From contig NZ_JABMCJ010000089.1 in the NCBI RefSeq assembly GCF_013359755.1, forward strand, positions 62,001-126,000: a stretch of 64,000 bases of DNA. Reading direction: 5' to 3'. Each line of letters begins with the position of its first letter. Positions within the stretch are counted from its first letter, which is position 1. Under the pieces are notes generated by a model. The model searched no databases. It saw only the letters and a program-made list of their open reading frames with translations, and had not been told where the DNA came from. The DNA comes from Tardiphaga robiniae. Lineage in GTDB: Bacteria; Pseudomonadota; Alphaproteobacteria; Rhizobiales; Xanthobacteraceae. Made by a program: the position numbers and the translations under genes. Shown piece after piece: positions 14,179 to 64,000 of the stretch.

Positions 14179-14201
14179 CCGCTTCTGGCGCAAAGCGGAC
14201 G
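14179..14201. repeat. REP-like palindrome, copy 1
   Basis: CCGCTT-N7-AAAGCGG with the core GGCGCAAAGCGGAC. It lies in the convergent gap between the ICE remnant and the LysR gene, ending 2 bp before the LysR stop. Confidence 0.8.
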
Positions 14202-14202
14202 T

Positions 14203-15120
14203 CTATTGGTCCCGCCAATACCGCCAAGGCGGCGGATCGGGTAGTTTCGTCTTGAGGAAGTCTAAGAAGACCCTGACACGGTTACTTACCAGTCGGCGGC
14301 TCTGATACACCGCATAGATGGGATGTTCCTCTGGGCACTGATGTTCCGGAAAGAGCTCGACCAAGCGGCCTTGAGCGAGATCGTCGGCGATTTGGACTTC
14401 GACCAATCGCACGATGCCGAGGCCAGCGCGCGCGAACTCGATAAGGATCGAAGCCTGGTTCGAGCGTACACGGCTCTTGACGGCGAGCGGTGTGGACAAG
14501 CCATCGGCACCGCGAACGGTCCATGTGCTGGCGGCAATGGACGAATGAAAATTGAGACAGGCGTGGTCCGCTAACTCGTTGGGATGTGACGGCGTGCCGT
14601 ACTCGGCCAGATAGCTCGGCGACGCACAAATGATCCATCGCGTGCTCGTAAATCGCGTGGCCACGAGCGAGGAGTCATGGAGGTGGCCAACATGAATCGC
14701 GACGTCCGTTCCCTCGTCGAGTAGCGGCCCGGGATCGATCCGCAGCTGAAGTTCGACCTGAAGGTCGGGATGCTGCCGGCAGAACTCCGGGAGCTTCTTG
14801 GCGAGGATGACCTGCCCGAAGATTGGCATTGAGCGAATGCGCAGGGTTTCGCGACCGAGTTTGCCGCTGAAGATCGTCGCGTCAGCGGCCTCGACGGCTT
14901 CGATGGCTGCAAGCGCCGCCCGATAGAAGACCTCTCCCTCCGGCGTCATGACGATGTTGCGGTGCGCACGGCGGAATAGCAGCGCGCCCAACCGTTCTTC
15001 CATCCGCGTAATCAGCTTGCTGACTGCGGACGGCGTGATGGCAAGGTTTCGGGCCGCTGCAGAGAAGCTGCCGTCTTCCGCGGCCCTGACGAAAACCTGC
15101 ATCTCTGTGTAGCGGTTCAC
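14203..15120 (-). CDS. LysR-family transcriptional regulator
   Basis: A 305-residue LysR regulator: N-terminal winged helix (MQVFVRAAEDGSFSAAARNL, PSAVSKLITRMEERLGALLF) and a two-lobed effector domain from about residue 90. Members usually activate a divergent operon in response to a pathway intermediate. It is divergently placed from the Baeyer-Villiger-type monooxygenase gene with a 132-bp shared control region containing T-N11-A sites, so it is the likely regulator of module A. The effector cannot be predicted. Confidence 0.9.
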   Translation of the reverse strand: MNRYTEMQVFVRAAEDGSFSAAARNLAITPSAVSKLITRMEERLGALLFRRAHRNIVMTPEGEVFYRAALAAIEAVEAADATIFSGKLGRETLRIRSMPIFGQVILAKKLPEFCRQHPDLQVELQLRIDPGPLLDEGTDVAIHVGHLHDSSLVATRFTSTRWIICASPSYLAEYGTPSHPNELADHACLNFHSSIAASTWTVRGADGLSTPLAVKSRVRSNQASILIEFARAGLGIVRLVEVQIADDLAQGRLVELFPEHQCPEEHPIYAVYQSRRLVSNRVRVFLDFLKTKLPDPPPWRYWRDQ

Positions 15121-15131
15121 GTTTTTCTCTT

Positions 15132-15158
15132 GTGACGGAAATTCACATCAGGTTTGAA
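15132..15158. promoter_or_regulatory. Candidate LysR boxes
   Basis: Two overlapping dyads lie just upstream of the LysR start: GTGA-N7-TCAC at 15132-15146, which satisfies the T-N11-A rule (T15133, A15145), and TTCA-N9-TGAA at 15142-15158. Position in the divergent gap favours a LysR binding site with autoregulation. No experimental support. Confidence 0.45.
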
Positions 15159-15252
15159 CGATAGAGTATGGAAAGCAATCCGGCAAATCTCTAGCCTTCG
15201 AGGCAATAGCGCGGCATGCGAAGCCGCACATGAACGAACGGGGAGACGGTCG

Positions 15253-16893
15253 TTGGCGAGCAATGAGAGCACTGCTTTTGCAGTGAACGAACAATCGAGC
15301 CATGCCTGTGACGCGATCATCATCGGCGCCGGATTTTCCGGCCTTTACCAGTTGCACAAATTACGGGACGAACTCGGCCTCGACGTTGTCGTGCTCGAAA
15401 AAGGCGATGGCATCGGCGGTACCTGGTTCTGGAACCGCTATCCGGGCGCCCGCTGCGATTCCGAGAGCTATTACTACTGCTACTCCTTCAACAAGGAGAT
15501 CGAGCAGGAATGGAGCTGGAGCGAGCGTTATCCCGAACATCCGGAGATCCGAAAGTATCTGAATTTCGTCGCCGACAAGCTCGATCTCAAGCCCGATATC
15601 CGACTGAACACTGAAGTCACCTCGGCCGCGTTCGATGACGATGCCAATCTCTGGACGGTACAGACGAAGAACGGACAATCCTTTGCCGCTCCATTCCTGA
15701 TCACGGCAGTGGGCTGTCTCTCGACCGCCAATGTGCCTGATATCAAGGGCCTCGATAGCTTCAAGGGACAATGGTATCATACTGGCCTGTGGCCGCATGA
15801 GGGCGTCGATTTCAGCGGCAAGCGTGTGGGCCAGATCGGAACCGGATCGACCGGGATTCAGACCGCACCTGTTATTGCCGAGCAGGCAAAACATCTCACG
15901 GTTTTCCAGCGTACGGCAAATTACAGCATTCCGGCGCGTAACGGCCCGGTGACGGCGGACGACATCAAGCATACAAGGGACAATTACGACGAGATCTGGC
16001 GGCTGGCACGCGCCGGTACCAACGGACATCCGTTCACGATCTCGACGCGTTCCGCGCTGTCGGTGTCCGATGCGGAGCGGGAGGAGATCTATGAAAAGGC
16101 GTGGGAGCGCGGCGGATTGCGCTTCCGTGCATCGTTTTCCGATGTCCTGCAGAATGTCGAGGCAAACCTCACGGCCTCAGACTTCCTCCGCGACAAGATT
16201 AAGACCGTCGTCAAGAATCCGGTGGTCGCAGAGATGTTGACGCCACGCGATCATGGATTCGCGACCAAGCGTCCGCCGATCGACAGCGGCTATTTCGAAA
16301 CGTTCAATCGGGACAATGTGCTGCTGGTGGATCTCAAGGCAGAACCGATCGTCGAGGTGACGGCGAACGGCATCCGCACGACGAAGCAGGACTACGCGCT
16401 CGACATCATCGTGTTCGCGACAGGCTTCGACGCACTGACGGGACCACTCGTCAATCTAAACATCAGCGGCAGCCAGGGTATCAAGCTGAAGGATGCCTGG
16501 GCGGCCGGCCCGCGCACTTACCTTGGCCTGCAGTCGCCGAAATTCCCGAATCTGTTCACCATCACCGGTCCTGGCAGCCCGTCGGTGTTGTGCAATATGC
16601 CGATTGCCATCGAGCAGCATGTAGACTGGATCACCAATTGCATCCGCGACATGCGCGCGAACGGCCAAAAGCGGATCGAGGCCAATACCGACTCGACCGA
16701 AAAGTGGGTCGCGCATGTCAACGAAGCCGCGGATGCGACGCTGCTGCCCATGGCAAGTTCGTCCTGGTATCTTGGCGCCAATGTACCGGGCAAGCCGCGT
16801 GTCTTCATGCCCTACGCCGGTGGATTGGCGCGCTACACCTCGATCTGTGACGACGTTGCGCAAAGCGGTTATCGCGGCTTCGCGCTGAGCTAA
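15253..16893 (+). CDS. Baeyer-Villiger-type flavin monooxygenase
   Basis: FAD/NADPH enzyme of the cyclohexanone/phenylacetone monooxygenase class, which inserts oxygen next to a ketone carbonyl to give an ester or lactone. From TTG 15253, FAD motif GAGFSG is at 25-30, GGTWFWNRYPGARCD follows, the class fingerprint FKGQWYHTGLW is at about 170-180, and a second Rossmann motif GTGSTG binds NADPH. The TTG start is chosen for GGGGAGA six bases upstream and the resulting 546 residues, typical of the class; the frame also opens at ATG 15154. It heads module A, divergent from LysR. The ketone substrate is unknown; a neighbouring SDR could supply it from an alcohol. Confidence 0.87.
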   Translation: MASNESTAFAVNEQSSHACDAIIIGAGFSGLYQLHKLRDELGLDVVVLEKGDGIGGTWFWNRYPGARCDSESYYYCYSFNKEIEQEWSWSERYPEHPEIRKYLNFVADKLDLKPDIRLNTEVTSAAFDDDANLWTVQTKNGQSFAAPFLITAVGCLSTANVPDIKGLDSFKGQWYHTGLWPHEGVDFSGKRVGQIGTGSTGIQTAPVIAEQAKHLTVFQRTANYSIPARNGPVTADDIKHTRDNYDEIWRLARAGTNGHPFTISTRSALSVSDAEREEIYEKAWERGGLRFRASFSDVLQNVEANLTASDFLRDKIKTVVKNPVVAEMLTPRDHGFATKRPPIDSGYFETFNRDNVLLVDLKAEPIVEVTANGIRTTKQDYALDIIVFATGFDALTGPLVNLNISGSQGIKLKDAWAAGPRTYLGLQSPKFPNLFTITGPGSPSVLCNMPIAIEQHVDWITNCIRDMRANGQKRIEANTDSTEKWVAHVNEAADATLLPMASSSWYLGANVPGKPRVFMPYAGGLARYTSICDDVAQSGYRGFALS

Positions 16894-16943
16894 CTGCCCA
16901 TGCCGCGGCCGACGGAGCGAAAGCCGCGGGCAAGAGGAGTCGG

Positions 16944-16977
16944 CGCCGCAGCATTGGTCCCCGACCTCGCTGCGGCG
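16944..16977. terminator. GC-rich stem-loop between monooxygenase and importer genes
   Basis: A perfect 9-bp inverted repeat, CGCCGCAGC (16944-16952) and GCTGCGGCG (16969-16977), with a 16-base loop. No T-run follows, so it is a weak candidate terminator or an mRNA end. The rest of the 264-bp gap 16894-17157 holds no gene; open frames there are extensions of the next gene. Confidence 0.35.
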
Positions 16978-17157
16978 AATTTACTCGAGGCATTCGGAAA
17001 GTCCGTTGGACAGCGCGCCGTTCCTGCTGCACGATCTTCGTATTGCGCTGATCGACCAAAGGACCGAGTGAGGAGAGTAAGTCACCAAGACGACGCTGAT
17101 CTGGAAATAATAAAATCTGTACCGGCAAAGCCGGACATCAAAATCAGGGAGGGTTCA

Positions 17158-18420
17158 ATGACCAAGACGACCAAGGGCATTTCACGCCGACGCGTCCTCA
17201 AGGGCGCTGGCGCCATGGCAGGCCTTGCCGCATTCGGCGCGCCGCATATCGCCGGTGCACAGGCGAAAGTCATCAAGATCGGCCTGCCGACGATCCTGTC
17301 GGGACGCGTTGCAATCCTCGGCACGTCCAGTCGGTTTGCAGTCCAGCTCGCTTTCAATCAGATAAACGAAGCCGGCGGCATCAATGGCCGCAAATTCGAA
17401 GTGGTCGACCGCGACTCCAAGGGGCGTCCCGACGAAGCCGCCAAGGTCACGCGCGATCTCATCAATAATGACGGTTGCGATATCATCGTCGATGGCGAGG
17501 CGTCGTCAGGCAGCTTCGCGGTGCATGAGGTCGTGCGCGATCTCGGCATCCTTTGCCTCCATACCTGCAGCGAAACCTCGTCGCTGACGGCAGACCCCAA
17601 GCAGTTCAGCAAGAATGTGTTCAGATGCGCCCGACAGGGCATCCATGATGCCGTCGCAGGTGGTAGCTACGCAGCGAAGATTGCCAAGGAGAAGGGGCTC
17701 AAGAAGTGGGCGACCTGTTCGCCCGATTACGCCTATGGCCGCGACAACACCGCGGAATTTCTGCAATACGCCAAGGTGTTCGAGCCGTCGATCGAAGTGG
17801 TCGATCAGCTCTGGCCGAAACTGTTTGCGCCCGATTACACCGAGAGCATCACCAAGCTGATGCAGGTGAAGCCGCAGGCGGTCTATTCGGCGCTGTGGGG
17901 CGGCGATCTCGTCGCGTTTATCGAGCAGTCGAACCTGTATCGCCTGTTCCAGAACACCGCCTATTTCTCCGGTGGTCTTGGCGATCCGCCGATCCTGACG
18001 GCCATCAAGAACCTGCCGCAGGGACTCAACACGGCCTATCGGTATAACAACGGATTTCCGAGTTCACCCGAGAACACCGCCTTCTGCGATGCCTATGTCA
18101 AGGTGGCGCCGCACGAGCCGACCAACTGGGCGTGGCAGAACTACGCGGCGTCGCAATTCATTATCGAGGCGCTGCGTCGCACGAACGGCAATACCGACAG
18201 TTCTGCGCTGGCGAAGGAAATCTCCGGCATGACGGTGAAGAAGCCGTTTGGCGGTGCCGGCATCACCATGCGTGACAGCGATCATACGATCATCAATTAC
18301 CCCGTCGCATGGGGCAAGACGGTCAGCAAGTCACCCTGGGTGGTCGATTACGTCGATACGGAATGGTCGAAGATCGTCGAGCTCGAGAAGGAGTGGAAGA
18401 AGGAAAAGGGTTACGCCTGA
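17158..18420 (+). CDS. Branched-chain-type ABC importer, substrate-binding protein (module A)
   Basis: Periplasmic receptor of the LivJ/AmiC-like Peripla_BP_6 family, about 420 residues. The N-terminus carries a twin-arginine export signal SRRRVLK at 9-15 followed by a hydrophobic stretch and GAQA, so the protein is probably folded before export. The body starts IKIGLPTILSGRVAILG and contains FNQINEAGGINGRKFEVVDRD, typical of the family. ATG 17158 has AGGGAGGG upstream; the upstream extension to 16900 is not supported. It precedes the permease genes by 147 bp. Family members bind amino acids, amides, aromatic acids or other small acids; the ligand here is unknown. Confidence 0.9.
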   Translation: MTKTTKGISRRRVLKGAGAMAGLAAFGAPHIAGAQAKVIKIGLPTILSGRVAILGTSSRFAVQLAFNQINEAGGINGRKFEVVDRDSKGRPDEAAKVTRDLINNDGCDIIVDGEASSGSFAVHEVVRDLGILCLHTCSETSSLTADPKQFSKNVFRCARQGIHDAVAGGSYAAKIAKEKGLKKWATCSPDYAYGRDNTAEFLQYAKVFEPSIEVVDQLWPKLFAPDYTESITKLMQVKPQAVYSALWGGDLVAFIEQSNLYRLFQNTAYFSGGLGDPPILTAIKNLPQGLNTAYRYNNGFPSSPENTAFCDAYVKVAPHEPTNWAWQNYAASQFIIEALRRTNGNTDSSALAKEISGMTVKKPFGGAGITMRDSDHTIINYPVAWGKTVSKSPWVVDYVDTEWSKIVELEKEWKKEKGYA

Positions 18421-18452
18421 GCTGTCTGCGGGCATCGTCGCTAGATGACGTG

Positions 18453-18473
18453 GCCCGTCGCATGGTGACGGGC
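18453..18473. promoter_or_regulatory. Stem-loop between binding-protein and permease genes
   Basis: GCCCGTC (18453-18459) pairs with GACGGGC (18467-18473), 7-base loop. Such hairpins after a binding-protein gene often protect its mRNA and lower downstream expression. No T-tract is present. Confidence 0.4.
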
Positions 18474-18567
18474 TCGGCCGCTCCGTCGCACATCCGGCCT
18501 GCCGTTCGCGTCGGCCGGAACAGGCTCGTTCAGACCATCGAAGGTCAGACCATCAAAGGACTGCGCT

Positions 18568-19473
18568 GTGAACCTCGAAGCCCTTGCATCCTGCCTGTCA
18601 TCGTCAGCCTGCGCCGTGACGCAGATATCGACGGCGCTCATCATCGGCATGCTGCTGTTCATGGTGGCGTCCGGCCTGTCGCTGATCTTCGGCGTGCTCG
18701 GCGTCATCAATTTCGCCCATGGCGCATTCTATATGGCTGGCGCCTATATCGCCTTCTTCACCTATCAGGCGACATCGAGCTTTTTACTGGCATTCCTGGC
18801 CGGCGCGCTCGGGGCAGGCCTGATCGGGGTCATCTTTGAGCGGTTCATCATCAGCAAGGTGTATGGCAAGGACATCCTGATGCAGTTGCTGGTTTGCTAC
18901 GCCATCATCCTGATCTTCGACGATCTGGTGAAGATCATTGCCGGCCCGGAATACAAGATGATGGGCATGCCCGACGTGTTCGCGCTTCCGCCGCTTGAAT
19001 TCGCCGGCGGCTTCGTTCCGGCCTATTACGTCTTCATGATCGTCGCGAGCCTGTTGATCGGCGCGATGCTCTGGCTCGCAATCGAGAAGACCCGGATCGG
19101 CAAGATCATCCGCGCCCTCGCCATCAATCCGCAGATGGTCGGCGCACTCGGGATCAACACGACGCTGCTCTACGCGGCCGTGTTTGGCGTCGGCAGCATG
19201 CTGGCGGGTATCGCCGGCTCCCTCGCGGCGCCGACACGCACATTGACGCCGGGTATGGGTCTATCGATCCTGATCGAAAGCTTCATCGTCACCGTGATCG
19301 GCGGGATGGGATCGATTGTCGGCGCGCTGATCGCAGCGTTGCTCATCGGCTTCACGCGGGCCTTCGGAGCGATCGGCTTCCCGCTCTTCGTTGACGGGAT
19401 CATGTTCGGCATGATGGCCGTCGTTCTGATCGTCAAGCCCAGCGGTCTGCTCGGCCGGGAGATCGCGCGATGA
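18568..19473 (+). CDS. Branched-chain-type ABC permease, LivH-like (module A)
   Basis: Inner-membrane permease of 301 residues with about eight hydrophobic segments. It shows the LivH signatures INFAHGAFYMAGAYIAF near the N-terminus and TVIGGMGSIVGALIAALLIG near the C-terminus. The start is a GTG at 18568. Its stop overlaps the LivM-like ATG by 4 bases, so the two permease subunits are coupled and should form the heterodimeric channel. Confidence 0.9.
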   Translation: MNLEALASCLSSSACAVTQISTALIIGMLLFMVASGLSLIFGVLGVINFAHGAFYMAGAYIAFFTYQATSSFLLAFLAGALGAGLIGVIFERFIISKVYGKDILMQLLVCYAIILIFDDLVKIIAGPEYKMMGMPDVFALPPLEFAGGFVPAYYVFMIVASLLIGAMLWLAIEKTRIGKIIRALAINPQMVGALGINTTLLYAAVFGVGSMLAGIAGSLAAPTRTLTPGMGLSILIESFIVTVIGGMGSIVGALIAALLIGFTRAFGAIGFPLFVDGIMFGMMAVVLIVKPSGLLGREIAR

Positions 19474-20489
19474 TGAAAGCGGGGTTCCTGCGCGATCTGC
19501 TCTTTGCGGCTGCCGTGCTGATCGTTTTGATTGTCGTACCGTTCATCTTCACCAAGCCATCGCTGCGCGACTTCCTCATCTATGTGATGGCCTATGGCCT
19601 GCTGGCGATGTCGCTGAATCTCCTCGTGGGGCTCACGGGGCTGGTCTCGTTCGGGCATGCGGCCTTCTTCGTGTCCGGCGCCTATATGTTCGGTCTGCTG
19701 ATGCAGTCCGGCCGCGTGTCGATCCCCGTTGCAATTCTCGTCACGGTGCTCGGCACTGCGGTGCTTGCGCTGGTGATCGGTGCGATCTGCGTGCGGCTCA
19801 AGGAAATCTATTTCTCCTTCATCACGCTGGCCTTCCAGATGTTCATCCACTCGATCATCCTGACATGGGTCAGCTTGACCGGCGGGGATCAGGGCTTGCG
19901 CGGCGGCATTCCGCGGCCCCCGTTCTTCGGCATCGATCTCAGCAGCGGCGTGTCGCTTTATATCTTCTCGGCTTGCGTCTTCGTCGTCTGTATCCTGATC
20001 ATGCGTCAGGTCTGGCAGTCGCCGTTCGGCTACACGCTGCGCTTGATCCGCGACAATCCGAACCGGGCCAATTACCTCGGCGTCGATATCGTTCGCATGA
20101 AGCTCGGCGTGTTCATCCTGGCCGGTGCGATGGCCAGCGTTGCCGGCATCCTGCTGTCGCTGTTCGTCTCCGGCGCCTATCCGGAATTCGGCTTCTGGAC
20201 GACCTCGGGCGAGGCCATCTTCATGATCATGCTCGGCGGCTCGCAACTGTTCGTCGGGCCGATCATCGGCGCCATCCTGCTGCGCCTGATCGAGCATTTC
20301 GTATCCATCTACACAGAATATCACGGCCTGGTGCTGGGCATCGTCATTCTGGCCATCGTGCTCGGTCTGCGGCAGGGCATCGCCGATTACATCGTCGAAT
20401 TTCTGCAGCGACGCAAAGAGGCCAGGGCGGCTCCTGCCCAGGACGCTTCCGCCAAGGATGCCACCTTCGCCAAGGAGAGGATTGCCTGA
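19470..20489 (+). CDS. Branched-chain-type ABC permease, LivM-like (module A)
   Basis: The 339-residue second membrane subunit, with about eight to nine hydrophobic segments and the LivM signature (NLLVGLTGLVSFGHAAFFV, later MLGGSQLFVGPIIGAILL). The last 30 residues are a charged cytoplasmic tail. The stop shares one base with the start of the LivG-like ATPase gene (TGATG). Confidence 0.9.
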   Translation: MMKAGFLRDLLFAAAVLIVLIVVPFIFTKPSLRDFLIYVMAYGLLAMSLNLLVGLTGLVSFGHAAFFVSGAYMFGLLMQSGRVSIPVAILVTVLGTAVLALVIGAICVRLKEIYFSFITLAFQMFIHSIILTWVSLTGGDQGLRGGIPRPPFFGIDLSSGVSLYIFSACVFVVCILIMRQVWQSPFGYTLRLIRDNPNRANYLGVDIVRMKLGVFILAGAMASVAGILLSLFVSGAYPEFGFWTTSGEAIFMIMLGGSQLFVGPIIGAILLRLIEHFVSIYTEYHGLVLGIVILAIVLGLRQGIADYIVEFLQRRKEARAAPAQDASAKDATFAKERIA

Positions 20490-21256
20490 TGCTCTCGGTG
20501 CAGAACCTCGATAAACGCTTCGGCGGTGTTCACGCCACGCGCAATGTCTCGATCGATTTTCCCGACGGCTCGCTCACGGCGATCATCGGACCGAATGGCG
20601 CAGGCAAGACCACCTTCTTCAACCTGATCTCGGGCGCGTTCCGGCCGAATTCGGGGAAGGTCATTTTCGACGGTCAGGATATCGTTGGTAAATCGAGCCT
20701 TGAGGTCGTGCGGCTCGGCATGACGCGGGCGTTCCAGGTCGCCGAGATCTTCCCCAGCCTGACCGTCACCGAGGCGATCATGGCGACGGTGATCTCTCAT
20801 TTGCGCAAGTCATGGACCTTTCTGCGGCGGTTTCCTGTCGCGGAAGCCAAGGCGCGGACGGAAGAGATCATCGAACTGCTCGGGCTCGCGGACAAGGCGG
20901 GGACGCTCTCGCGCAATCTCTCCCATGGCGACCAGAAGCTGCTCGATATCGGCCTTGCGCTCGCCATGGAGCCAAAGGTGCTGCTGCTCGACGAGCCGAC
21001 CGCGGGCATGGGGCCGGACGAGCGCTGGCGCATGATCGGCAAGGTGCAGCATCTGTGGCAGGTCAAGAAGATGACGGTGCTGTTCATCGAGCATGACATG
21101 GATATCGTCTTCAAGATCGCCCAGAAAATCCATGTGCTGAAATACGGCGCCGTGCTCGCGCAGGGCACGGCCAACGAGATCCGGCGCAATCAGGATGTCA
21201 TCGACGCCTATCTCGGTGCCGATCACCATCTCTCCGCAGCAGTGGGAGAGGCATGA
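20489..21256 (+). CDS. Branched-chain-type ABC ATPase, LivG-like (module A)
   Basis: A 255-residue ATP-binding subunit: Walker A GPNGAGKTT, a LivG-type signature LSHGDQ, Walker B LLLDEPTAGMG and H-loop FIEHDMDIVF. ATG 20489 is supported by one-base overlap with the permease stop; the open frame upstream belongs to the overlapping permease. Its stop overlaps the LivF-like start (ATGA). Confidence 0.93.
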   Translation: MLSVQNLDKRFGGVHATRNVSIDFPDGSLTAIIGPNGAGKTTFFNLISGAFRPNSGKVIFDGQDIVGKSSLEVVRLGMTRAFQVAEIFPSLTVTEAIMATVISHLRKSWTFLRRFPVAEAKARTEEIIELLGLADKAGTLSRNLSHGDQKLLDIGLALAMEPKVLLLDEPTAGMGPDERWRMIGKVQHLWQVKKMTVLFIEHDMDIVFKIAQKIHVLKYGAVLAQGTANEIRRNQDVIDAYLGADHHLSAAVGEA

Positions 21257-21969: not shown

Positions 21970-22036
21970 CGCCGTCGCCATCGTCAAACGCGCAGCTTTG
22001 CTGCGTGCAACAAGAAACGGACAACGGGAGTGCAGG

Positions 22037-28094: not shown

Positions 28095-28095
28095 T

Positions 28096-56014: not shown

Positions 56015-56931
56015 TAGCGGACCTCGTCGAAGAACCCGGCTCCGCGCAACAGCGGTTCGATCAGCGGGTAGTGATGCTCGTAATACCAGTCGGCGATCTG
56101 GCTTCCAGTCGCGAACCAGACGTCGTCATGTGCGCTGACATGAGCCAGAATCTCGTCGAGATATTTGGCGCGGTGCGGCTGTCCAAGGAAGAACGGATGG
56201 ATCGGAATGCAGGCGACCCGTCCGCCGCCGTTCGCGCTGTCGCTGTAGAGCTGATCGAAATAGGCGATTGTATTTTTAGCGAAAGCCTTTGCCTCCACAT
56301 TGCCACGGAAATTCATACCGTCATTGACGTCGAATGAGTAGGGGATGGCGAGCAGCTTCCCGCTCGGAACCCGCAGTGGCGTCGGCTGATCGTCGAAACC
56401 ATAGTCGACATAGTAACTCAGGCCGAGTTCCGCGCAGAGGTCCTCGGTATGTTCGGTCGATGCAGCAAAGGGCGCGAAGAAGCCGCGCATGTCGCGTCCG
56501 GTCAGGGCCTTGTGCCGGTCGATCGAGTTCTGAATCACCGCTCTCTCATTGTCGCGGCTTAGGCCCCAGTGGTGACGGCTGTTGTAGATGCCATGGCTCA
56601 TGACTTCCCATCCGCGGGCCTCACCGGCCTCGCGGATTTCAGGAAACATCTCGTACACAGCAAGATTTAGCGAGCAGGTGATCGGCAGTTGGTAGCGATC
56701 GAACACGTCCAGCATGCGCCAGAAGCCGATCCGGTTGCCGTAGTCGACGTCCGTGTAGACCATCATGTCGGGATGTGGCAGGCGCGGATACGGATCAACT
56801 TTTTGGCCGACGTCGCCTAGATATTGGTAGTGCTCGACATTCGGGACGATCCAGCACGCCATCCGTTTGCCGCCGGGCCAGCGCAGGTCTGGACGCTTGG
56901 TGATGGGGATATAGGCGATACGTGCGTTCAT
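56014..56931 (-). CDS. PuuE-like polysaccharide-deacetylase-fold hydrolase (first of the pair)
   Basis: A 305-residue homologue of the downstream gene: KRMACWIVPNVEHYQYLG, VDYGNRIGFWRMLDVFDRYQ, GWEVMSHGIYNSRHH, GFFAPFAASTEHTEDLCAEL and IPIHPFFLGQPHRAKYLDEI. The SHG-x-Y-N-S motif and the GFFAP loop are those of the PuuE/allantoinase-like group. ATG 56931 (AGGAAG upstream) is preferred over 57051. The pair may form a hetero-oligomer or act in sequence on a ureide or cyclic amide. Divergent from the NMT1-type importer of module E. Confidence 0.85.
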   Translation of the reverse strand: MNARIAYIPITKRPDLRWPGGKRMACWIVPNVEHYQYLGDVGQKVDPYPRLPHPDMMVYTDVDYGNRIGFWRMLDVFDRYQLPITCSLNLAVYEMFPEIREAGEARGWEVMSHGIYNSRHHWGLSRDNERAVIQNSIDRHKALTGRDMRGFFAPFAASTEHTEDLCAELGLSYYVDYGFDDQPTPLRVPSGKLLAIPYSFDVNDGMNFRGNVEAKAFAKNTIAYFDQLYSDSANGGGRVACIPIHPFFLGQPHRAKYLDEILAHVSAHDDVWFATGSQIADWYYEHHYPLIEPLLRGAGFFDEVR

Positions 56932-56981
56932 CAGCGGACTTCCTTGGTGAGGGGCGATGTGTTCAGCCATTGTATTGATCG

Positions 56982-56994
56982 CACAATCATTGTG
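56982..56994. promoter_or_regulatory. CACAATCATTGTG palindrome upstream of the PuuE-like pair
   Basis: A perfect 13-base palindrome (odd centre) 51 bp upstream of ATG 56931, in the divergent control region of module E. A candidate site for the IclR regulator encoded in this module. Confidence 0.4.
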
Positions 56995-57094
56995 TGCCGA
57001 GGAAGGCTGGCTACGCGGTCTTGCTCTGCCGGTCGGCGCATTGGGCGCCAAGCTGGATGGGCGGCGACCACGGTCGCGTAGGCGCCATCGTGCG

Positions 57095-57181
57095 GAAACG
57101 GAGCGCCTTAAACTTCGGCAAGTCGCTCAATTGGATAGCATGGTCGCCGGCCGTGCGGGGATATCACAACGGTCTCGGTAG
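57095..57181 (+). pseudogene. C-terminal remnant of an IclR-family gene
   Basis: In the frame ending at 57181 the codons encode ERLKLRQVAQLDSMVAGRAG, matching the C-terminus of the intact IclR protein at 61744-62538 (ERLKLQQVAQLGSMIASLAG), followed by a truncated end. Nothing upstream in this frame resembles IclR. The similarity continues at DNA level through the following non-coding sequence to 57350. Confidence 0.75.
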
Positions 57182-57349
57182 GCCAGTCGGTCGCTGATTG
57201 GGTTCCTGGGGGAGCACGTGGCCGGCAGGAACTCGCGATCTTTGGTTAGCCATCTCATCAGGTGGAATAAGATCGTCGTGAATACAGGGCGATCCGATTG
57301 TGGTGTCAGTCTTGCTTTGTGGTGATTACCGCCTTTGCAAGGAGCTGCC

Positions 57350-57517
57350 ATGGCCACTTTCACCAACGGGTTGTCGACAACCTCTGCGCGTATCAACGCA
57401 TCCACCGGCCTGACTGTTTTGCGCCCTCGCGTTTTCGCCGGGCAGATCGACGCCGAGAAGGTCGAATTCCGCCTGCGTGGCAATATCAATTCGATTGTCG
57501 GAACTTGGGAGAACTAA
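57350..57517 (+). pseudogene. N-terminal remnant of a BMP-type binding-protein gene
   Basis: A 55-residue frame starting 168 bp after the IclR remnant and ending 9 bp before the NMT1-type gene. Its ribosome site and start (tgcaaggagctgccATG) are the same as those of the intact BMP gene at 62690, and the product aligns with its first 55 residues (GL...FAG...AEK..F.L.G.IN) but has lost the hydrophobic signal core. It is a decayed paralogue, not an expressed receptor. The remaining part of the 595-bp gap 56932-57526 contains no other gene. Confidence 0.65.
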
Positions 57518-57526
57518 GGAACGGAC

Positions 57527-58489
57527 ATGAGAAAAATCATACTTCTGACCACTCTGCTTGCGGCGACCGGCTTTGCAGCGCCCTCCTTTGCGGCGGACAA
57601 GGTCATCGTTGGATATGGAACTGGCACCACGGCGCTTCCATATTTCGTCGGCGTCGAGACCGGTATTTTCGCCAAACACGGCATCGATATCGAAGGCGCT
57701 AAGATTCCGCTCAATTCGAATCTGCAAAGCTCGCTGATTGCGAACCAGATCGACGCCGCTGCGGTCATGCTGGCGGTTGAGGGCATGGCAGGCAACTTCG
57801 TCAAGCCGGGATCGATCACCTATATTTCGTTGAACGCACAAAGCGACGACTACCGCATGGAGCAGTTCGTTGCCCGCAAGGGTGTGGACATCAAGTCGCT
57901 TGCGGATTTCAAGGGCAAGAAGCTGGTCGCGGCGCCGGGCATTGGCAATGTGACAATCGCCAAGGCGGCTCTGCAGGCGGCAGGTCTGAAAGAGGGCGAC
58001 TACAAGCTCGATCAGCTCGACACTTCCCAGCACATCAACGTGCTGACCTCCGGCCAGTATGATGGCGCCTTCACCCTCGAGCCCAATGCCACCATGATGA
58101 GGGCCAAGGATGTCGCCTACACGGTCGAGGCGGGCGTCGTTGCCGATATCGTGCTCGGCAACCGCAAGGCCAAGGCCTATATGGCGGGCGGTGCACTATC
58201 GCAGAAGTTCCTGGCGGATCGGCCGGAGGTCGCAAAGCGCTATGTCGCTGCGTGGGACGAGGCGCTTGATTTCATCAAGCAGAAGCCGACCGAGGCGCGC
58301 CAGACCCTTCTGAAATACACGCCGACTGCACCCGAGATCGTCAACGACGTGCCGTTGGTGTTGTTCTCGAAAATTTCGGATGTCAGTCAGGCGGATATCG
58401 AGAATTTCCAGAAGTATATCGATTTCTCGGTAAAAATCGGTGTGATCCCCGGCGCCGTCGATGTCCGGCGTTACATCGTGAAGTTCTGA
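57527..58489 (+). CDS. NMT1/SsuA-type ABC importer, substrate-binding protein
   Basis: A 320-residue periplasmic receptor of the NMT1/THI5 / SsuA-TauA group. A Sec signal peptide runs to about AFAAPSFAAD (residues 16-25). Typical segments are VIVGYGTGTTALPYFVGVET, GIFAKHGIDIE, DFKGKKLVAAPG and KYVAAWDEAL-like helices (RYVAAWDEALDFIKQKP). Family members bind pyrimidine precursors, sulfonates, taurine or aromatic acids. Its stop shares one base with the ATPase start, so importer genes are coupled. The neighbouring PuuE-like genes would suit a pyrimidine- or ureide-like ligand. Confidence 0.9.
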   Translation: MRKIILLTTLLAATGFAAPSFAADKVIVGYGTGTTALPYFVGVETGIFAKHGIDIEGAKIPLNSNLQSSLIANQIDAAAVMLAVEGMAGNFVKPGSITYISLNAQSDDYRMEQFVARKGVDIKSLADFKGKKLVAAPGIGNVTIAKAALQAAGLKEGDYKLDQLDTSQHINVLTSGQYDGAFTLEPNATMMRAKDVAYTVEAGVVADIVLGNRKAKAYMAGGALSQKFLADRPEVAKRYVAAWDEALDFIKQKPTEARQTLLKYTPTAPEIVNDVPLVLFSKISDVSQADIENFQKYIDFSVKIGVIPGAVDVRRYIVKF

Positions 58490-59334
58490 TGAGCGCGGAC
58501 GCTCGCACTTCCATTCTGAAACCGATGTCCGTCGCGGGCAATCCCGATGCGCCGGTCGATACCCGCCCGTCAAAGTTCCGGCGCCCGCACGTGACCGTGC
58601 GGGGGCTTACCAAGCGTTTCGATGACCGCACGATCTATGAGAAGTTCGATCTCGATCTGCCGCGCGGGCAGTTCGTTTCGATCTTCGGCCCGAACGGTTG
58701 CGGAAAATCAACATTGATGAACATGATTGCCGGCCTGATCCCGGTGGACGAAGGACAGATTCTGTTCGACGGCCAGACCATCGATGAGATCCGGTTCGGC
58801 TATGTCTTCCAGAACTACCGTGACGCCCTGTTCCCGTGGATCAGCGCGTGGGACAACATCGCCTATCCTCTGCGTTTCATGAAGGTACCGAAGGCGGAGC
58901 GCAACAGACGCGTCGATGCGCTAGTGAAGAAATTCGATGTTCGCATCAATCTGAAACAGTACCCGTATCAAATGTCCGGCGGACAGCAACAGCTTGTCTC
59001 GATTTTGCGCGCGCTCGTGGTCGATCCAGAGATTCTCTTTCTCGACGAGCCATTCTCCGCCCTCGACTATGAGATGACTTTGTTCATGCGCGACCAGATG
59101 CAGCGCATGTTCCAGGAAACCGGAACGACGACGATTATCGTTTCCCATGATCTCGACGAGGCCGTCTATCTCGCCGACCGCATCCTGCTGCTGTCTCGCG
59201 CGCCGGCCAAGGTCGTCGATTTTCCGATAGTGGATGTGCCGCGCCCGCGCAATGCGCTGACACTGGCGGATCCAGAGTTCAACCGCGTTAAGGGGCATTG
59301 CCTCGAAATCTTCCAGCAGCAGGTCAGAAAATGA
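58489..59334 (+). CDS. NMT1/Tau-type ABC importer, ATPase
   Basis: A 281-residue ATPase of the SsuB/TauB branch: Walker A GPNGCGKST, Q-loop YVFQNYRDALFPW, signature MSGGQQQLV, Walker B FLDEPFSALD, H-loop VSHDLDEAV. About 35 extra hydrophilic residues precede the core domain. The start overlaps the receptor stop (TGATG) and the stop overlaps the permease start (ATGA). Confidence 0.92.
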   Translation: MSADARTSILKPMSVAGNPDAPVDTRPSKFRRPHVTVRGLTKRFDDRTIYEKFDLDLPRGQFVSIFGPNGCGKSTLMNMIAGLIPVDEGQILFDGQTIDEIRFGYVFQNYRDALFPWISAWDNIAYPLRFMKVPKAERNRRVDALVKKFDVRINLKQYPYQMSGGQQQLVSILRALVVDPEILFLDEPFSALDYEMTLFMRDQMQRMFQETGTTTIIVSHDLDEAVYLADRILLLSRAPAKVVDFPIVDVPRPRNALTLADPEFNRVKGHCLEIFQQQVRK

Positions 59335-60092
59335 AGAGCAAGACCCTTGATCGGCTGCGTCCGTTTATTGGAGTCGTGATCCTCATTGGCATATGGCAGG
59401 CCATCGTCACGCTCAAGATCGTCGACCCTGTGCTGCTTCCGTCGCCGGGCAAGACGTTCTCGGCTGTTTACACCGGACTGTTCGAACAGGGCCGGCTGGC
59501 CTTCGATTTCGGCAAGACGGTCGAGCGCGCTTGTATGGGCATTGCGCTGGCGACGGTGATAGGCGTTCCGGTCGGCGTCATTCTTGGGGCGTCGGAAAAC
59601 GTCTACCGCTCCGTCGAGTTCATTATCGATTTTTTTCGTTCGACGCCGGCATCGGCCGTCTTTCCGCTGTTTCTCCTGTTGTTCGGCGTCGGTGAGATCA
59701 CAAAAGTCTATATCTCCGCTTTCGGCGCATCGCTCGCGATCATTTTTAATGTTGCTTATGGCGTCATGAACGCGCGCAAGACACGCGTGCTTGCTGCGAA
59801 GATCATGGGTGCGCCGCCGTTGCAGCGGATGCTGGTAGTGCTGCTTGAATCGTTGCCGCAAACTTTCATCGGCCTGCGCATGGGAGCAACCCTCGCGCTC
59901 GTGCTGATGATCACGTCGGAGATGCTGCTCGGTGCGATCGATGGACTTGGTTTGCGGATCTTCGAGGAGCAGCAGCTGTTCAATATGCCGGGGATGTATG
60001 CGGCGATTTTCTGTTCCGGGCTTCTGGGTTATACGCTGAACCTATTTTTCTTCATAACAGAACGCCGGTTCGTCCATTGGGCTGGTCGATAA
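59331..60092 (+). CDS. NMT1/Tau-type ABC importer, permease
   Basis: A 253-residue inner-membrane permease with about six hydrophobic segments. The docking EAA-type loop reads VLAAKIMGAPPLQRMLVVLL, and the periplasmic TPASAVFPLFLLLFGVGE is typical of the SsuC/TauC family. ATG 59331 overlaps the ATPase stop; an upstream frame to 59298 is inside that gene. Completes a three-gene importer. Confidence 0.9.
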   Translation: MKSKTLDRLRPFIGVVILIGIWQAIVTLKIVDPVLLPSPGKTFSAVYTGLFEQGRLAFDFGKTVERACMGIALATVIGVPVGVILGASENVYRSVEFIIDFFRSTPASAVFPLFLLLFGVGEITKVYISAFGASLAIIFNVAYGVMNARKTRVLAAKIMGAPPLQRMLVVLLESLPQTFIGLRMGATLALVLMITSEMLLGAIDGLGLRIFEEQQLFNMPGMYAAIFCSGLLGYTLNLFFFITERRFVHWAGR

Positions 60093-60129
60093 TGCGTCAA
60101 TCTCGCGACCGCGGCGCCTTGGAGTTTCT

Positions 60130-61668
60130 ATGAATAAATATGTGAAAGACGATAGGTTTACGTCGCCGCAGCATTCGGAGGCCGTCGACGTAGCTGGCTG
60201 GATGCCCGAGGTGCCGTATGCCGACGAAAGCGCCTTTGCGGACGGCAAGGTGCAACTGCCAAAGACGATAAGTGAGCTGGCCGCCCATGCGCGCCGCGAA
60301 ATGAATATTGCCCGCTATCCATCCAAGCATTGGTGTCTGCCGCGCACCAGCCCGGATGGCACGCAGGCACTGGACGTGCTGGTGGTCGGCGGCGGGCAGG
60401 CTGGTTTTGGCGTTGCTCATGCGCTCAAGCGCTCGCACATCGATAACATCCTCGTCGTCGAGGCCGAGCAGGAGGGCAGGGAAGGCCCGTGGGGTACATA
60501 TGCCCGCATGCCGACGCTGCGAACCCACAAGGACAATGGTGGTCTTGAGGCCGGCATTCCCTCGCTGTCATTTCGGGCCTGGTATGAAGTGCAGCACGGC
60601 TACGGCAGCTGGCAGGCGCTCTATAAGGTGCCGACCGCTGCGTGGCATGCGTATCTTTCGTGGTTTCGTGAGGTCGCTGAACTTCCGGTACGCAACGAGA
60701 CGCGCTTCGAAGGTTTCAGCCGCGACGGGTCTGGACTTATCGCCGCGCAGGTTACGGGACCGGCGGGGAGCTATACTTTGTTCACCCGCGCGCTGGTGCT
60801 GGCCACGGGTATCGAGGGAAATGGAATTCGCAATCTGCCCAGTTTGATCGGCGACGACATTCCGCGCGCGCTCTATGCGCATACCCAGGACGACATCGAC
60901 TTTGCCGCTCTGAAAGGGAAGAAAGTTCTGGCGCTCGGCGGCGGCGCCTCTGCATACGACAATGCCATCATGGCCGCGGAGGCCGGCGCCGACGTGCACG
61001 TGTTCCATCGCGTGAAAGAGCTGGTGTCGGTCAATCCGGGTACCTGGGGTGAATTCAACGGCTATCTGGCACATTATGTCGAATTGCCGCCGGCGGCGAA
61101 ATGGCGGTTCGCCAAGACGTTCGGCACGATCAAGAGCGGACCGCCAATCGCCACGCTGAAGCGGGCGCAGTCGATGGACAACCTTGCCATTCATCCCGGT
61201 GAAAGCTGGACCAGCATTGCTCACGAGGGCAATCGTCTAACGGTTGCGGCGACCAGCGGCACCTACGAGGCGGATTTCCTGATCCTCGGCACAGGCTACC
61301 GTCTTGATCTGTCCGCCGTCCCGGCGCTGAAAGATCAACTCGACGATATAGCGCTGTGGCGCGATATGTACACGCCGCCAGCAGACCTGCCTGGCAATGG
61401 CCTCGAACTCGCGCCCTGGCTGAACCGGGATTTCACGTTCTGCCCGAAGCCGGGCGGTATGCGGAGCTGGCATGACCAAGTGTTCAATTTCTCACGTGGC
61501 GCGCAGTTGTCGATGGGCACGCAGACGATCGGCCTGTCCGGTATTCGCTTCGGGATGGCCCGGCTGGCCGGCTGTGTGGAGAGCTATTTCTTCAAGCAGG
61601 ACAGTGCGCTCTATCTCGAAGGCCTGCAGAGCTGGCAGACGCGCGACCTGGCCGCATTGGATACCTGA
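60130..61668 (+). CDS. FAD/NAD(P)-dependent monooxygenase-like flavoprotein
   Basis: A 512-residue flavoprotein with two dinucleotide motifs: VVGGGQAG (FAD, about 85-92) and ALGGGASAYDNAIMAAEAGA (NAD(P)H, about 275-295), plus an ATG motif in LATGIEGNG and a terminal-FAD DG-like LILGTGYRLDLS. The layout is that of flavin-containing or N-hydroxylating monooxygenases; the BVMO fingerprint of the module A enzyme is not visible. An unusually long segment of about 80 residues precedes the FAD motif. It follows the NMT1-type importer by 37 bp and precedes the IclR gene, so it probably initiates breakdown of the imported compound. Exact reaction unknown. Confidence 0.82.
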   Translation: MNKYVKDDRFTSPQHSEAVDVAGWMPEVPYADESAFADGKVQLPKTISELAAHARREMNIARYPSKHWCLPRTSPDGTQALDVLVVGGGQAGFGVAHALKRSHIDNILVVEAEQEGREGPWGTYARMPTLRTHKDNGGLEAGIPSLSFRAWYEVQHGYGSWQALYKVPTAAWHAYLSWFREVAELPVRNETRFEGFSRDGSGLIAAQVTGPAGSYTLFTRALVLATGIEGNGIRNLPSLIGDDIPRALYAHTQDDIDFAALKGKKVLALGGGASAYDNAIMAAEAGADVHVFHRVKELVSVNPGTWGEFNGYLAHYVELPPAAKWRFAKTFGTIKSGPPIATLKRAQSMDNLAIHPGESWTSIAHEGNRLTVAATSGTYEADFLILGTGYRLDLSAVPALKDQLDDIALWRDMYTPPADLPGNGLELAPWLNRDFTFCPKPGGMRSWHDQVFNFSRGAQLSMGTQTIGLSGIRFGMARLAGCVESYFFKQDSALYLEGLQSWQTRDLAALDT

Positions 61669-61743
61669 GGACTTATCGTGCAGGCTTGACTTCTGGTATG
61701 GTAGCGTCGGCGCGTAAACGCCGGACATCAACCGGAGAGACCC

Positions 61744-62538
61744 GTGGCGCAAGACCCCGAAACTGGACAGACATCAGGCGTTCGCTCGGTCGATCGTGCA
61801 CTGGCGATCCTGCAAGCGGTTGCGGGCAGCCATGATGGTGCCACGCTTGCTGACGTCGCTCGGCAGCTATCGCTATCGCCCTCGACGGGGCATCGTCTTC
61901 TGACAACGTTACAGGAACGTGGTTTCGTTCGTTTTGAACGGCGAACGGGCCGTTGGATGATTGGGCGTTCGGCGCTCAATGTAGGCGCCAACTACGCCGC
62001 GTCACGCGATATTGTCGCACTAGCGCAGCCTTTCATGCAGCAGGCGTCGGTCCTGTGCGGCGAGACCATCAATCTCGGATTGCTGGAAGACGGTCACGTG
62101 ACCTTTCTCTATCGAGTCGAGCCGCGAACGCGCCGTAGCTACGTTCCAGAGGCGCGCGTTAGGATCCCGGCTCATGGATCCAGTATCGGCAAGGCGCTGC
62201 TCTCCATGATGCCCGAGCGCGAGGTTCAGTCGTGCCTGGAGCAGAATACGCTCGTCCCGCTCACGCCGCATACGCTGCTCTCGCAGAATGCTCTGCGGCA
62301 GGAATTCGAGTCGATCCGGCGCGACGGTTATGCCGTCGACAACCAGGAAAACACGTTAGGGCTACGATGCCTGGCTGCGGCGATTTCCGATGAGTATCGC
62401 CGGCCCGTTGCGGCGCTGTCGATGGCGGCCCCTATCGAACGCCTCAAACTTCAGCAAGTTGCTCAACTGGGAAGCATGATCGCCTCCCTGGCTGGAGATA
62501 TCACGACGGCCTGGAGCGGTCGGCCGGCGGTACGCTAG
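61744..62538 (+). CDS. IclR-family transcriptional regulator
   Basis: A 264-residue IclR regulator: N-terminal winged helix (GATLADVARQLSLSPSTGHR, LLTTLQERGFVRFE) and a C-terminal effector domain with ETINLGLLEDGHVTFLYRVE and the catalytic-like IPAHGSSIGKALLS region. GTG 61744 follows GGAGAGA. It probably controls module E; the 56982-56994 palindrome is a candidate target. A decayed copy of its C-terminus is at 57095-57181, showing that this region has been duplicated. Confidence 0.9.
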   Translation: MAQDPETGQTSGVRSVDRALAILQAVAGSHDGATLADVARQLSLSPSTGHRLLTTLQERGFVRFERRTGRWMIGRSALNVGANYAASRDIVALAQPFMQQASVLCGETINLGLLEDGHVTFLYRVEPRTRRSYVPEARVRIPAHGSSIGKALLSMMPEREVQSCLEQNTLVPLTPHTLLSQNALRQEFESIRRDGYAVDNQENTLGLRCLAAAISDEYRRPVAALSMAAPIERLKLQQVAQLGSMIASLAGDITTAWSGRPAVR

Positions 62539-62689
62539 GCCCGTAGCGGGCCGAGGCCTTGGAGAAGGCTGGCGATCTTCGGTCGGCCATCTCACCACGT
62601 GGAATAGGATTGCATTGACGATCGCGCGGGCCAGTTGTGGTGCCAGTCTTGCTTGGTGAGGTCATGTACCGCCTGTGCAAGGAGCTGCC

Positions 62690-63727
62690 ATGAGTGTTCT
62701 GACCAAGGATTCGCCGACAAGCCGTTCGCGCGCTGCGTTTGTTGGCCTGTTTGGATTGTGTGCCGCCATCTTTGCCGGACCGGCTGGTGCGGCCGAAAAG
62801 GCTGCTTTCCTGCTGCCTGGCAGCATCAACGACCAGAGCTGGAACGCGCAGGGCTACCAGGGTGCCGAGAAGCTCAAGGCTGTCGGCTGGGACGTAGCCT
62901 ATACCGAAAACGTGCAGGTCGCCGACATGGTCGAGGCGCTGCGCGATTATGCGCGCAAGGATTACAAGGTTGTGGTCGGTCACACCGGCCGGTTCCTATC
63001 GGCGATGGAGCGTATCGGTCCCGATTTCCCGAAGACGCTGTTCATTGTCGGTTCGGGCTCAGCCGGCGCCGGGACTAACGTGACCTCAATAGACTACGAC
63101 AACACGCAGTTCGGCTTCATGATGGGCGTGCTGGCCGCGCGCATGAGCAGGACCGGCAAGATCGGTTCGGTGAACAGCCTCGAAGGGTTGCCGAACGTGG
63201 TCGCGCAAGTCGGCGGTTTCCGCAAGGGTGCCAAGAGCGTGCGCCCCGACATCGAGGTTAAGGTCATCTACATCAAAAGCATGGAAGACGCGGCCGAAGC
63301 CAAAGAGGCTGCATTGTCGCTGATCGCAGGCGGAGCCGACTTCATCAGCGGAAAGTTGAATGCGGGCCAGACCGGCATCATTCAGGCCGCCAAGGAAAAG
63401 GGAGTTTACGCCAACGGACGTTCGTTCGGTCACAGCGAGATCGCACCAGATGCCGTGCTGACCAACATCGTCGAAAAATGGTCCGACATGTATTCGCAGA
63501 CGGCGCAGGAGCAGGCTAAGTCCGGCGGAGTCGGTGGAAAATACGTGCTCTACGGCCTGAACACGCCCGGCAGCACTGGTGCCGAGCTTGCCTACAATGC
63601 GACACAGCCGTTGAATCCCGCCGTGCCTGCGAGCGTGGCTAACGAACTGGACGCGTTGAAAGGAAAGTTCAAGGACGGGTCGCTCAAGATCGCTGTCAAC
63701 CGCGAAGACGCGCACGGAGGAATCTGA
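62690..63727 (+). CDS. BMP-family ABC importer, substrate-binding protein
   Basis: A 345-residue member of the basic membrane protein / purine-nucleoside receptor family (PnrA-like). The N-terminus has a signal-like hydrophobic segment (about 14-30, ending AGPAGAAEK) without a lipobox Cys. Body segments are LLPGSINDQSWNAQGYQGAE, HTGRFLSAMERI, NVTSIDYDNTQFGFMMGVLA and VNSLEGLPNVVAQVGGFRKG. Ribosome site CAAGGAG precedes ATG 62690. Followed by a sugar/nucleoside-type ATPase gene. The ligand may be a nucleoside, nucleobase or other heterocycle, which would fit the PuuE-like hydrolases. Confidence 0.88.
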   Translation: MSVLTKDSPTSRSRAAFVGLFGLCAAIFAGPAGAAEKAAFLLPGSINDQSWNAQGYQGAEKLKAVGWDVAYTENVQVADMVEALRDYARKDYKVVVGHTGRFLSAMERIGPDFPKTLFIVGSGSAGAGTNVTSIDYDNTQFGFMMGVLAARMSRTGKIGSVNSLEGLPNVVAQVGGFRKGAKSVRPDIEVKVIYIKSMEDAAEAKEAALSLIAGGADFISGKLNAGQTGIIQAAKEKGVYANGRSFGHSEIAPDAVLTNIVEKWSDMYSQTAQEQAKSGGVGGKYVLYGLNTPGSTGAELAYNATQPLNPAVPASVANELDALKGKFKDGSLKIAVNREDAHGGI

Positions 63728-63744
63728 CCCTTGGCTATGGATTG

Positions 63745-64000
63745 ATGCCCATGCTTGAGATGCGCGGCATCAAGAAAGCCTATGGCACTGTGCAGGCCAA
63801 CCGCGGCATTGATCTCGATGTCGCGGCGGGCCAGATCGTTGGGCTACTCGGCGAGAACGGCTCCGGCAAAAGTACATTGATGAAGCTGCTGTTCGGTGTC
63901 GTCAGCGCAGATGCCGGGACGATCCGCTTCAAGGACAAGCCGCTCTCTGGGCATGGCCCCGCGCAGGCGATGGCTGCTGGCCTCGGCATGATCCATCAGC
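63745..64000 (+). CDS. Sugar/nucleoside-type (CUT2-like) ABC ATPase, 5' part only
   Basis: The frame opens at ATG 63745 (or 63751) and runs off the window after 85 codons. Walker A GENGSGKST follows EMRGIKKAYGTVQANRGIDL, and the Q-loop begins at GLGMIHQ. The GENGSGKST and GMIHQ motifs are those of the double ATPases (YufO/RbsA-like) that serve BMP-type receptors. It begins 17 bp after the receptor stop. The rest, including a probable second ABC domain and permease genes, lies beyond the window. Confidence 0.88.
   Translation, partial: MPMLEMRGIKKAYGTVQANRGIDLDVAAGQIVGLLGENGSGKSTLMKLLFGVVSADAGTIRFKDKPLSGHGPAQAMAAGLGMIHQ

Follow-up and report, generated by a model that had tools for sequence, protein, structure and literature searches.

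In a 64,000-nucleotide stretch of the Tardiphaga robiniae genome, referred to here as the window (positions 62,001 to 126,000 of contig NZ_JABMCJ010000089.1 in assembly GCF_013359755.1; G000:C2:62001-126000), operons for uptake and catabolism stand in a row whose joints share one short palindrome. The genome, G000, comprises 6.3 Mb in 94 contigs, and contig C2, which contains the window, is 141,026 bp long. Between 13.9 kb and the contig end, seven convergent gaps alternate with seven divergent ones, the gap classes here and below being based on genes from a simple in-house caller. The palindrome, CCGCTTNTGGCGCAAAGCGGAC, occurs in the same orientation in all seven convergent gaps and in none of the seven divergent gaps. 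An earlier note on this DNA had described five modules of divergent layout from 14.2 kb onward, separated by convergent gaps, and had read their regular alternation as a sign of assembly from units. The five blocks, with six importers and five regulator families, are borne out by Pfam domains and the gene calls. The alternation itself is not telling since any row of divergent operons alternates; what goes beyond chance is that each of the convergent gaps has the palindrome, and has it in the same orientation.

The importers (HAAT, HAAT, CUT1, PepT, NMT1/Tau and BMP) and regulators (LysR, RpiR, GntR/FCD, AraC and IclR) named in the earlier note all correspond to Pfam domains, although the class names HAAT, CUT1, PepT, Tau and BMP are a reading of domain sets and the substrates of the units are judged by gene family alone. 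M1 (14203..23647) consists of a LysR-type regulator on the minus strand (14203-15120) and, on the plus strand, an FMO-like oxidoreductase, a HAAT importer (16900-21969) and two SDRs. In M2 (23980..32668), an SDR and an RpiR-type regulator (24825-25667) on the minus strand face a second HAAT importer (25803-30557) and an aldehyde dehydrogenase; a third, partial ABC ATPase-like frame of 205 aa (30554-31171) follows the two ATPases of this importer. The minus arm of M3 (32979..42575) encodes an IlvD/Edd dehydratase, and its plus arm a CUT1 importer (34875-39118), a Gfo/Idh protein, a GntR/FCD regulator (40131-40814, plus strand), an SDR and a DHDPS-family protein. M4 (43501..54928) has an AraC-type regulator on the minus strand (43501-44514) opposite a beta-lactamase-family hydrolase, a PepT importer (45897-50984), a copper amine oxidase and a gamma-glutamyltranspeptidase (53352-54928), the last of which is split, through either decay or an assembly error, into two frames that differ in phase and match profile positions 2-148 and 192-512. 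M5 (55121..61668) pairs two polysaccharide-deacetylase-family genes on the minus strand with an NMT1 (Tau) importer (57527-60092) and an FAD oxidoreductase on the plus strand. M6 begins in the window on the plus strand (61744..64000) with an IclR-type regulator (61744-62538) and a BMP binding protein (62675-63727), and continues in the stretch of C2 to the right of the window (L013) with an ATPase, two permeases, an AtzD/TrzD-family amidohydrolase and an amidase. By its family, the amidohydrolase may carry out ring opening of the cyanurate or barbiturate type. The row goes on in L013 with at least two more units, M7 (LysR / MFS) and M8 (enoyl-CoA hydratase / AraC, CoA transferase). Regulators are thus found in the minus arm in three of the five blocks (M1, M2 and M4), and the GntR/FCD and IclR regulators are on the plus strand. 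The claim that each module has its own complete importer in the plus arm holds with two reservations, which are that block 5 has two importers and that the ATPase and permeases of the BMP importer lie beyond the window.

The window contains five copies of the palindrome at three or fewer mismatches, against none in 100 shuffles. All are on the plus strand, at 14179..14200 (site 1, CCGCTTCTGGCGCAAAGCGGAC), 23842..23863 (site 2), 32778..32799 (site 3), 43473..43494 (site 4) and 54941..54962 (site 5), and two further sites are located at L013:5968 and L013:8448. A degenerate copy at 42604..42625 on the plus strand, which was read by eye and is outside the counted sites, has an intact right half, GGCGCAAAGCGGAC. 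At the same threshold the whole G000 genome has 14 copies, seven of them within 58 kb (C2:76179-134469) and all seven on the plus strand; ten genomes have from 0 to 16 copies each, and a reversed-pattern control gave none in G000 and three in total over ten genomes. The consensus, (GT)CCGCTTN-TGGCGC-AAAGCGGAC(AT), is readable in an 11-6-11 form, ATGTCCGCTTN-TGGCGC-AAAGCGGACAT, in which conservation is weak at the outermost positions and at positions 5-6 of the left arm. Among 76 unique sites in the genus, the left arm varies more at its outer and inner ends than do the spacer and the right arm. According to the in-house gene caller, 74 of these 76 sites are intergenic, one is within a gene and one is at the edge of a locus; 40 of the 76 are in convergent gaps, a class that makes up 110 of the 625 gaps longer than 40 bp when overlapping loci are counted twice. 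Among the matches listed, exact copies occur widely; most are from alphaproteobacterial records, and a few are from other groups, Pantoea for example. In several other records (L054, L057, L079, L118 and others) palindromes occur as doublets about 46 bp apart, a TGGCGC type followed by a TGACCC-like one. The possibility that the site is a small RNA or riboswitch was set aside, as Rfam gave no match at gathering score in the window or L013. The J12 spacer was likewise rejected as a mobile repeat in its own right, having one long match (G005 C16) in 61 genomes and otherwise matches of 48 bp or less. A second repeat family, with AATTCCCTG...CAGGGAATT motifs, fills the gap between M3 and M4 (42800-43290), and similar sequence was seen by eye after M2 in G005 and after M3 in G011. 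No published description of the site, or of directional exchange of catabolic units at repetitive extragenic palindromic (REP) sequences, was found among the open-access titles and beginnings of abstracts listed.

The earlier note had inferred that the modules were joined as units, and comparison with relatives supports this inference and mostly favours modular assembly. The array of about 50 kb was found whole in no relative searched with module DNA queries, which were run for M1, M2, M4 and M5-M6 against 39 other genomes and for M3 against 60, several of the assemblies compared being drafts. M1 to M4 instead recur alone at different loci. M1 is present in 4 of the 39 genomes (E<=1e-100), whole in G002 (93%, contig C5) and in less similar pieces in G009, G012 and G015. 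M2 is whole in one of the 39, G005 (94.6%, C8), and partial in the more distant G055, and three more genomes match it by the aldehyde dehydrogenase only. The plus arm of M3 is whole in 4 of the 60 genomes (G005, at 94.6% on C16, G011, G003 and G035) and is split over two contigs each in G008 and G018; the dehydratase arm accompanies it in the first four and in G018. M4 is matched over most of its length in 2 of the 39 (G005 C6 and G002 C19) at about 82%, falling to 74-78% at the ends, and M5-M6 is whole in none of the 39. M2, M3 and M4 are on three separate contigs in G005. M1 and M2 are absent, at the threshold used, from G001 and G016, which are the closest relatives by the core stretch, and M3 is represented there by single-gene matches only. 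M1 matches G002 at 93%, and M2 and M3 match G005 at 94.6%, in each case slightly above the identity of the single core stretch compared. Because of this the units seem to belong to the genus and to have been re-sorted, rather than to have come recently from afar, as far as a few loci can indicate. Units W, T and M8 are clustered in G005 C8 (which adds M2 and an M7-like unit) and in G012 C6; in G000 these pieces are spread over C84, C68 and C2. A plasmid origin of the array was rejected, as no plasmid record covers 80% of either half of the window; the best listed plasmid records have 1-7% coverage at 71-80% identity, and some others match above 80% over shorter pieces. For the modules, homology in the best matches (G002 and G005) ends about 40 bp or less from the outer stop codons, so that the breaks fall within the convergent gaps or at their edges and not inside the modules.

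The position of these breaks relative to the palindrome was assessed by comparing, all against all, 81 loci of the genus that total 1.33 Mb and partly overlap. The loci were picked mostly for holding sites, so the counts do not show what part of all rearrangements in a genome takes place at the site. With alignments below 200 bp or 75% identity, same-place overlaps and ends 60 bp or less from the edge of a locus left out, 70 of 466 directed alignment ends lie no more than 17 bp from a site centre, where 0.97 would be expected if ends were uniformly distributed. After merging, and removal of ends caused by an insertion sequence (IS) in G016, which remain in the 466-end, per-site and arm counts, 28 of 255 breakpoints are at sites. 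When sites were moved to random positions in the same locus, the mean was 1.8 for any intergenic position and 4.1 for convergent positions only, with maxima of 8 and 10 in 2000. In the gaps that hold a site, 28 of 62 distinct breakpoints fall on the site, compared with 5.5 expected. Taken per site without correction for the IS, 24 of 76 show a break at the site and 10 are crossed by homology, 4 of them belonging to both groups; 46 are without a homologue among the loci fetched. Comparison of 115 stretches from named records among the matches listed, mostly alphaproteobacterial, with each other and with the window (alignments below 200 bp, below 70% or above 99.5% identity excluded) gave 20 of 122 alignment ends at sites, counted in 30-bp bins with the window included, against 1.3 expected. 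A 7.9-kb alignment of M4 with Bradyrhizobium sp. 149 at 85.7% is among those that end at a site. Separately, L102, from a Parvibaculaceae-labelled bin, and L114, labelled Nitrospira, have 3.4 kb in common at 92% starting at a site, through either mis-binning or transfer.

In the array itself, four of the seven sites have a breakpoint, which agrees in part with the earlier expectation of breaks at the palindromes; other ends at the same gaps are 17 to about 217 bp away. At 14179 the break is seen against G002, where homology to M1 starts inside the site, and more weakly against G015. At 23842 it is seen against G005, with a 237-bp block of spacer and site in common with G005 C16 that ends at the last base of the site. 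The site at 43473 has its break against Bradyrhizobium sp. 149, the homology of M4 starting 3 bp before the site, and the one at 72448, in the extension, against G002.

Comparison of the two arms suggests where within the site the exchange takes place. In 14 site pairs that share the right flank, mismatches per base are 0.26 in the left arm and 0.06 in the right; in 10 pairs that share the left flank they are 0.16 and 0.20, and over all site pairs 0.30 and 0.16, the pairs not being independent as many are supplied by copies of one unit. Each arm tends to go with its own flank, which would place the crossover inside the site. The unit in question, U1 (G000 C84:120924-128343; 7.4 kb), encodes a GntR/FCD regulator, a polar amino acid importer and SDRs. 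At its right-arm end, five copies are alike from the arm onward and have five different neighbours before it; at the other end, three copies are alike as far as the spacer and diverge beyond it. In G000 and G002 each end of U1 is marked by a site, and in G016 the unit breaks at sites at both ends, the right site being interrupted by an IS. The copy in G005 C8 amounts to only about 540 bp, and the G001 copy was fetched in part. Other units scanned in G000, for which part of the genes were covered, are of like kind and also lie beside sites: unit W (FAD oxidoreductase, amidohydrolase and PepT importer), unit R (nitrilase-family, formamidase and ABC genes), unit F (HAAT importer and amidase) and unit E (phosphoketolase, acetate kinase and an Mla-type ABC system). 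Between contigs whose sites are all on one strand, each of the 76 homologous blocks that reach 500 bp runs in the same direction with respect to the sites, as does each of the 23 blocks with an end at a site, part of this conservation being plain synteny. Neighbouring sites on a contig are on the same strand in 45 of 48 cases, and the three exceptions, in the chromosome-length contigs of G006, G011 and G016, would fit a change of replichore.

These observations are best accounted for if the array is a set of operon-scale transport and catabolism cassettes joined at one directional palindrome, which are lost, gained and re-joined by crossover between sites; the probability of this explanation is put at roughly 0.68. 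Each cassette would have its own divergent promoter region and be joined to its neighbours at copies of the site. A unit between two direct sites would be able to come out as a circle and insert at another site, and the crossover would be made by a recombinase that reads the arms rather than by long homology. The first candidate for such an enzyme is a tyrosine recombinase, in view of the possible division of the consensus into two 11-bp arms around a 6-bp spacer. All 10 genomes examined encode two high-scoring tyrosine recombinases each, which were tentatively read as Xer-like, and others that vary; in G012 four tyrosine recombinase genes are arranged in tandem (C3:14674-18667). A more far-reaching form of the proposal, which is tentative and rather doubtful at present, is a chromosomal cassette system in which a dedicated site-specific recombinase acts on a directional palindrome of about 28 bp to exchange whole nutrient operons with their promoters and regulators, within and between alphaproteobacterial genomes, as an operon-scale counterpart of integrons.

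Several results weigh against cassette exchange at the site. Since 227 of the 255 breakpoints lie elsewhere, site exchange is not the sole process, and homology crosses 10 of the 76 sites. Among the matches listed, 63 viral stretches have the 15-base right half, and viral homology commonly runs straight through it. The fetched stretches contain no clean pair of the form A-site-B and A-site-unit-site-B. A single unit-sized insertion was found in comparing genomes, a 12.7-kb piece that includes M2 and is present in G005 C8 relative to G012 C6; its ends have no site, and M2 in G005 stands next to the M7-like unit with no site between them. Unit ends off the site include the right end of M1 in G002 (169 bp), M2 and M3 in G005 (about 50-155 bp, ending at stop codons), M4 in G005 (44 bp) and G002 (17 bp), the left end of M7 in G002 (75 bp) and the left end of M8 in G005 (about 217 bp). 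The far end of U1 in G005 C16 and the joint between M5 and M6 also are without a site, the arm comparison leans on copies of U1, and no recombinase has been linked to the site. Twenty relative loci fetched by unit (L022-L041) contain no site at five or fewer mismatches, the exceptions being two weak hits (4 and 5 mismatches) inside M1 of G009 and G012; a weaker site-like string was seen by eye after M3 in G005. It is these unit-fetched loci, together with the weakly conserved outer positions of the arms, that lower confidence in the explanation.

The main rival is that RecA-dependent or annealing-based recombination occurs between dispersed REP-like repeats without a dedicated recombinase, the convergent gaps tolerating breaks and the repeats providing short homology. 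It is a real contender, if one held at less than even odds. The element is extragenic, palindromic and most often in convergent gaps, and a homologous crossover inside the repeat also predicts the co-inheritance of arm and flank. Recombination between REPs has been described for F128 amplification and lambda bio junctions (available part of PMC1525189). Longer identical repeats, in the form of IS copies, are present in G016. The difficulty for this explanation is length, as RecA would normally call for a longer stretch than 22-28 bp in which the arms are degenerate.

It is unlikely that the palindrome is a passive marker, such as a bidirectional terminator or a REP, that resides in convergent gaps where joints form because breaks are harmless. 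Such a marker would account for the preference of sites for convergent gaps, for the several unit ends that are at stop codons and not at sites, and for the scarcity of the site in loci of the same units fetched irrespective of it. It does not readily account for the tendency of the arms to follow their flanks, and the excess of breakpoints on the site over the rest of the same gap disfavours it.

The left edge of the array bears on a further explanation. Positions 1..8053 are core chromosome (nadC, nadB, nadA, an NrtR-type regulator and neighbours), and homology to relatives stops at 8053, with identities of 95% to G001 and G016 and 92% to G005; G002 matches 3514-8053 at 91%. A tyrosine integrase gene (8559..9890, plus strand; Arm-DNA-bind_3 and Phage_integrase domains) stands at the left edge of the accessory DNA, and a match to a tyrosine recombinase domain at G000:C2:71306-71710 falls within the same gene. 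Remnants of a conjugative element follow (11298..13761, plus strand), namely an SLT transglycosylase and the C-terminal part of a VirD4/TraG-family coupling protein. The block of conjugation genes at 10424-13917 is 89-90% like one at another locus of G016, which is about 2.5 kb longer at position 13000 owing to either an internal deletion in the window or an insertion in G016. To the eye, a 46-bp sequence at 8267-8312 resembles the 3' end of a tRNA, and G001 has an identical copy next to the same core genes; ARAGORN found no tRNA in the window, L239 or L246. An integrase at the edge, a foreign block and an abrupt end of core homology are features of a genomic island or integrative conjugative element (ICE), the right edge of which was not found. 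The integrase and conjugation remnants beside the array make it probable that a conjugative element brought in the island as a whole, which then grew by site-to-site exchange. That the operons were instead captured stepwise by an ICE at one attachment hot spot, through the element's own integrase, would fit the integrase, the VirD4/SLT remnants and the sharp end of the core, yet it is quite improbable given that no integrase domain was found among the unit genes scanned with Pfam and that the site behaves in the same way at other loci (C78, C84 and C68) and in other genomes. Targeting of the palindrome by an IS30-family element that moves DNA between copies is the least probable explanation, having in its favour a 1226-bp IS of G016 (386-aa transposase, IS30 type by sequence reading) that lies within the site at two places, each with an IS-free counterpart in G001 or G000 (G016:C1:2884041-2885266, L237, and 2513954 onward, L236), and against it the absence of an IS or remnant at the swapped joints inspected, a third G016 copy outside a recognised site and an excess at sites that remains once the IS cases are excluded.

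How dozens of uptake and catabolic operons are assembled and reshuffled in large soil bacteria is an open question; horizontal gain is observed, but the joints are rarely marked. Many of the joints described here can be recognised by their sequence, have a direction and allow the position of the crossover to be measured, which makes the process directly testable and traceable in public genomes. The site may also help in finding functional operon boundaries from sequence.

Among known systems, REPs resemble the junction site in being short extragenic palindromes with several copies, a preference for convergent gaps, a role as IS targets and, in other records, doublets about 46 bp apart, and the idea that REPs serve as points of recombination and insertion exists already (available part of PMC1525189). 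The site differs from REPs in its low copy number in the 10 genomes, its strand polarity, the location of strain joints inside it and the exchange of operon units. Transposition by a RAYT (Y1 transposase, PF01797) was rejected, as this domain was found in none of 16 genomes of the genus and in 5 of 14 control genomes. The closest working analogue can be seen in the XerC/XerD-dependent pdif (dif) modules of Acinetobacter plasmids. Sites of this kind are 28 bp long with 11-6-11 geometry and in Acinetobacter alternate in orientation, whereas the array here is chromosomal, consists of importer and catabolic units and has direct rather than alternating sites. The junction site is probably also unlike dif itself. 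As far as the available parts of the reports describe them, pdif modules contain genes between short Xer-type sites, are shuffled as modules and have sites that are targeted by ISs (PMC13141974, PMC6449649, PMC10132070). Exchange of a unit with breakpoints at sites is likewise found for U1 in G000, G002 and G016. Integron cassettes have a palindromic site at the 3' ends of genes and form oriented arrays, both of which recall the array described here. Unlike integron cassettes, however, the units have their own divergent promoter regions and many genes, and the junction site presumably lacks the attC core consensus. Catabolic islands and ICEs are similar in that an integrase and conjugation remnants lie beside stacked catabolic operons, and what sets the array apart from them is that its internal joints share one site which is also present at other chromosomal loci.

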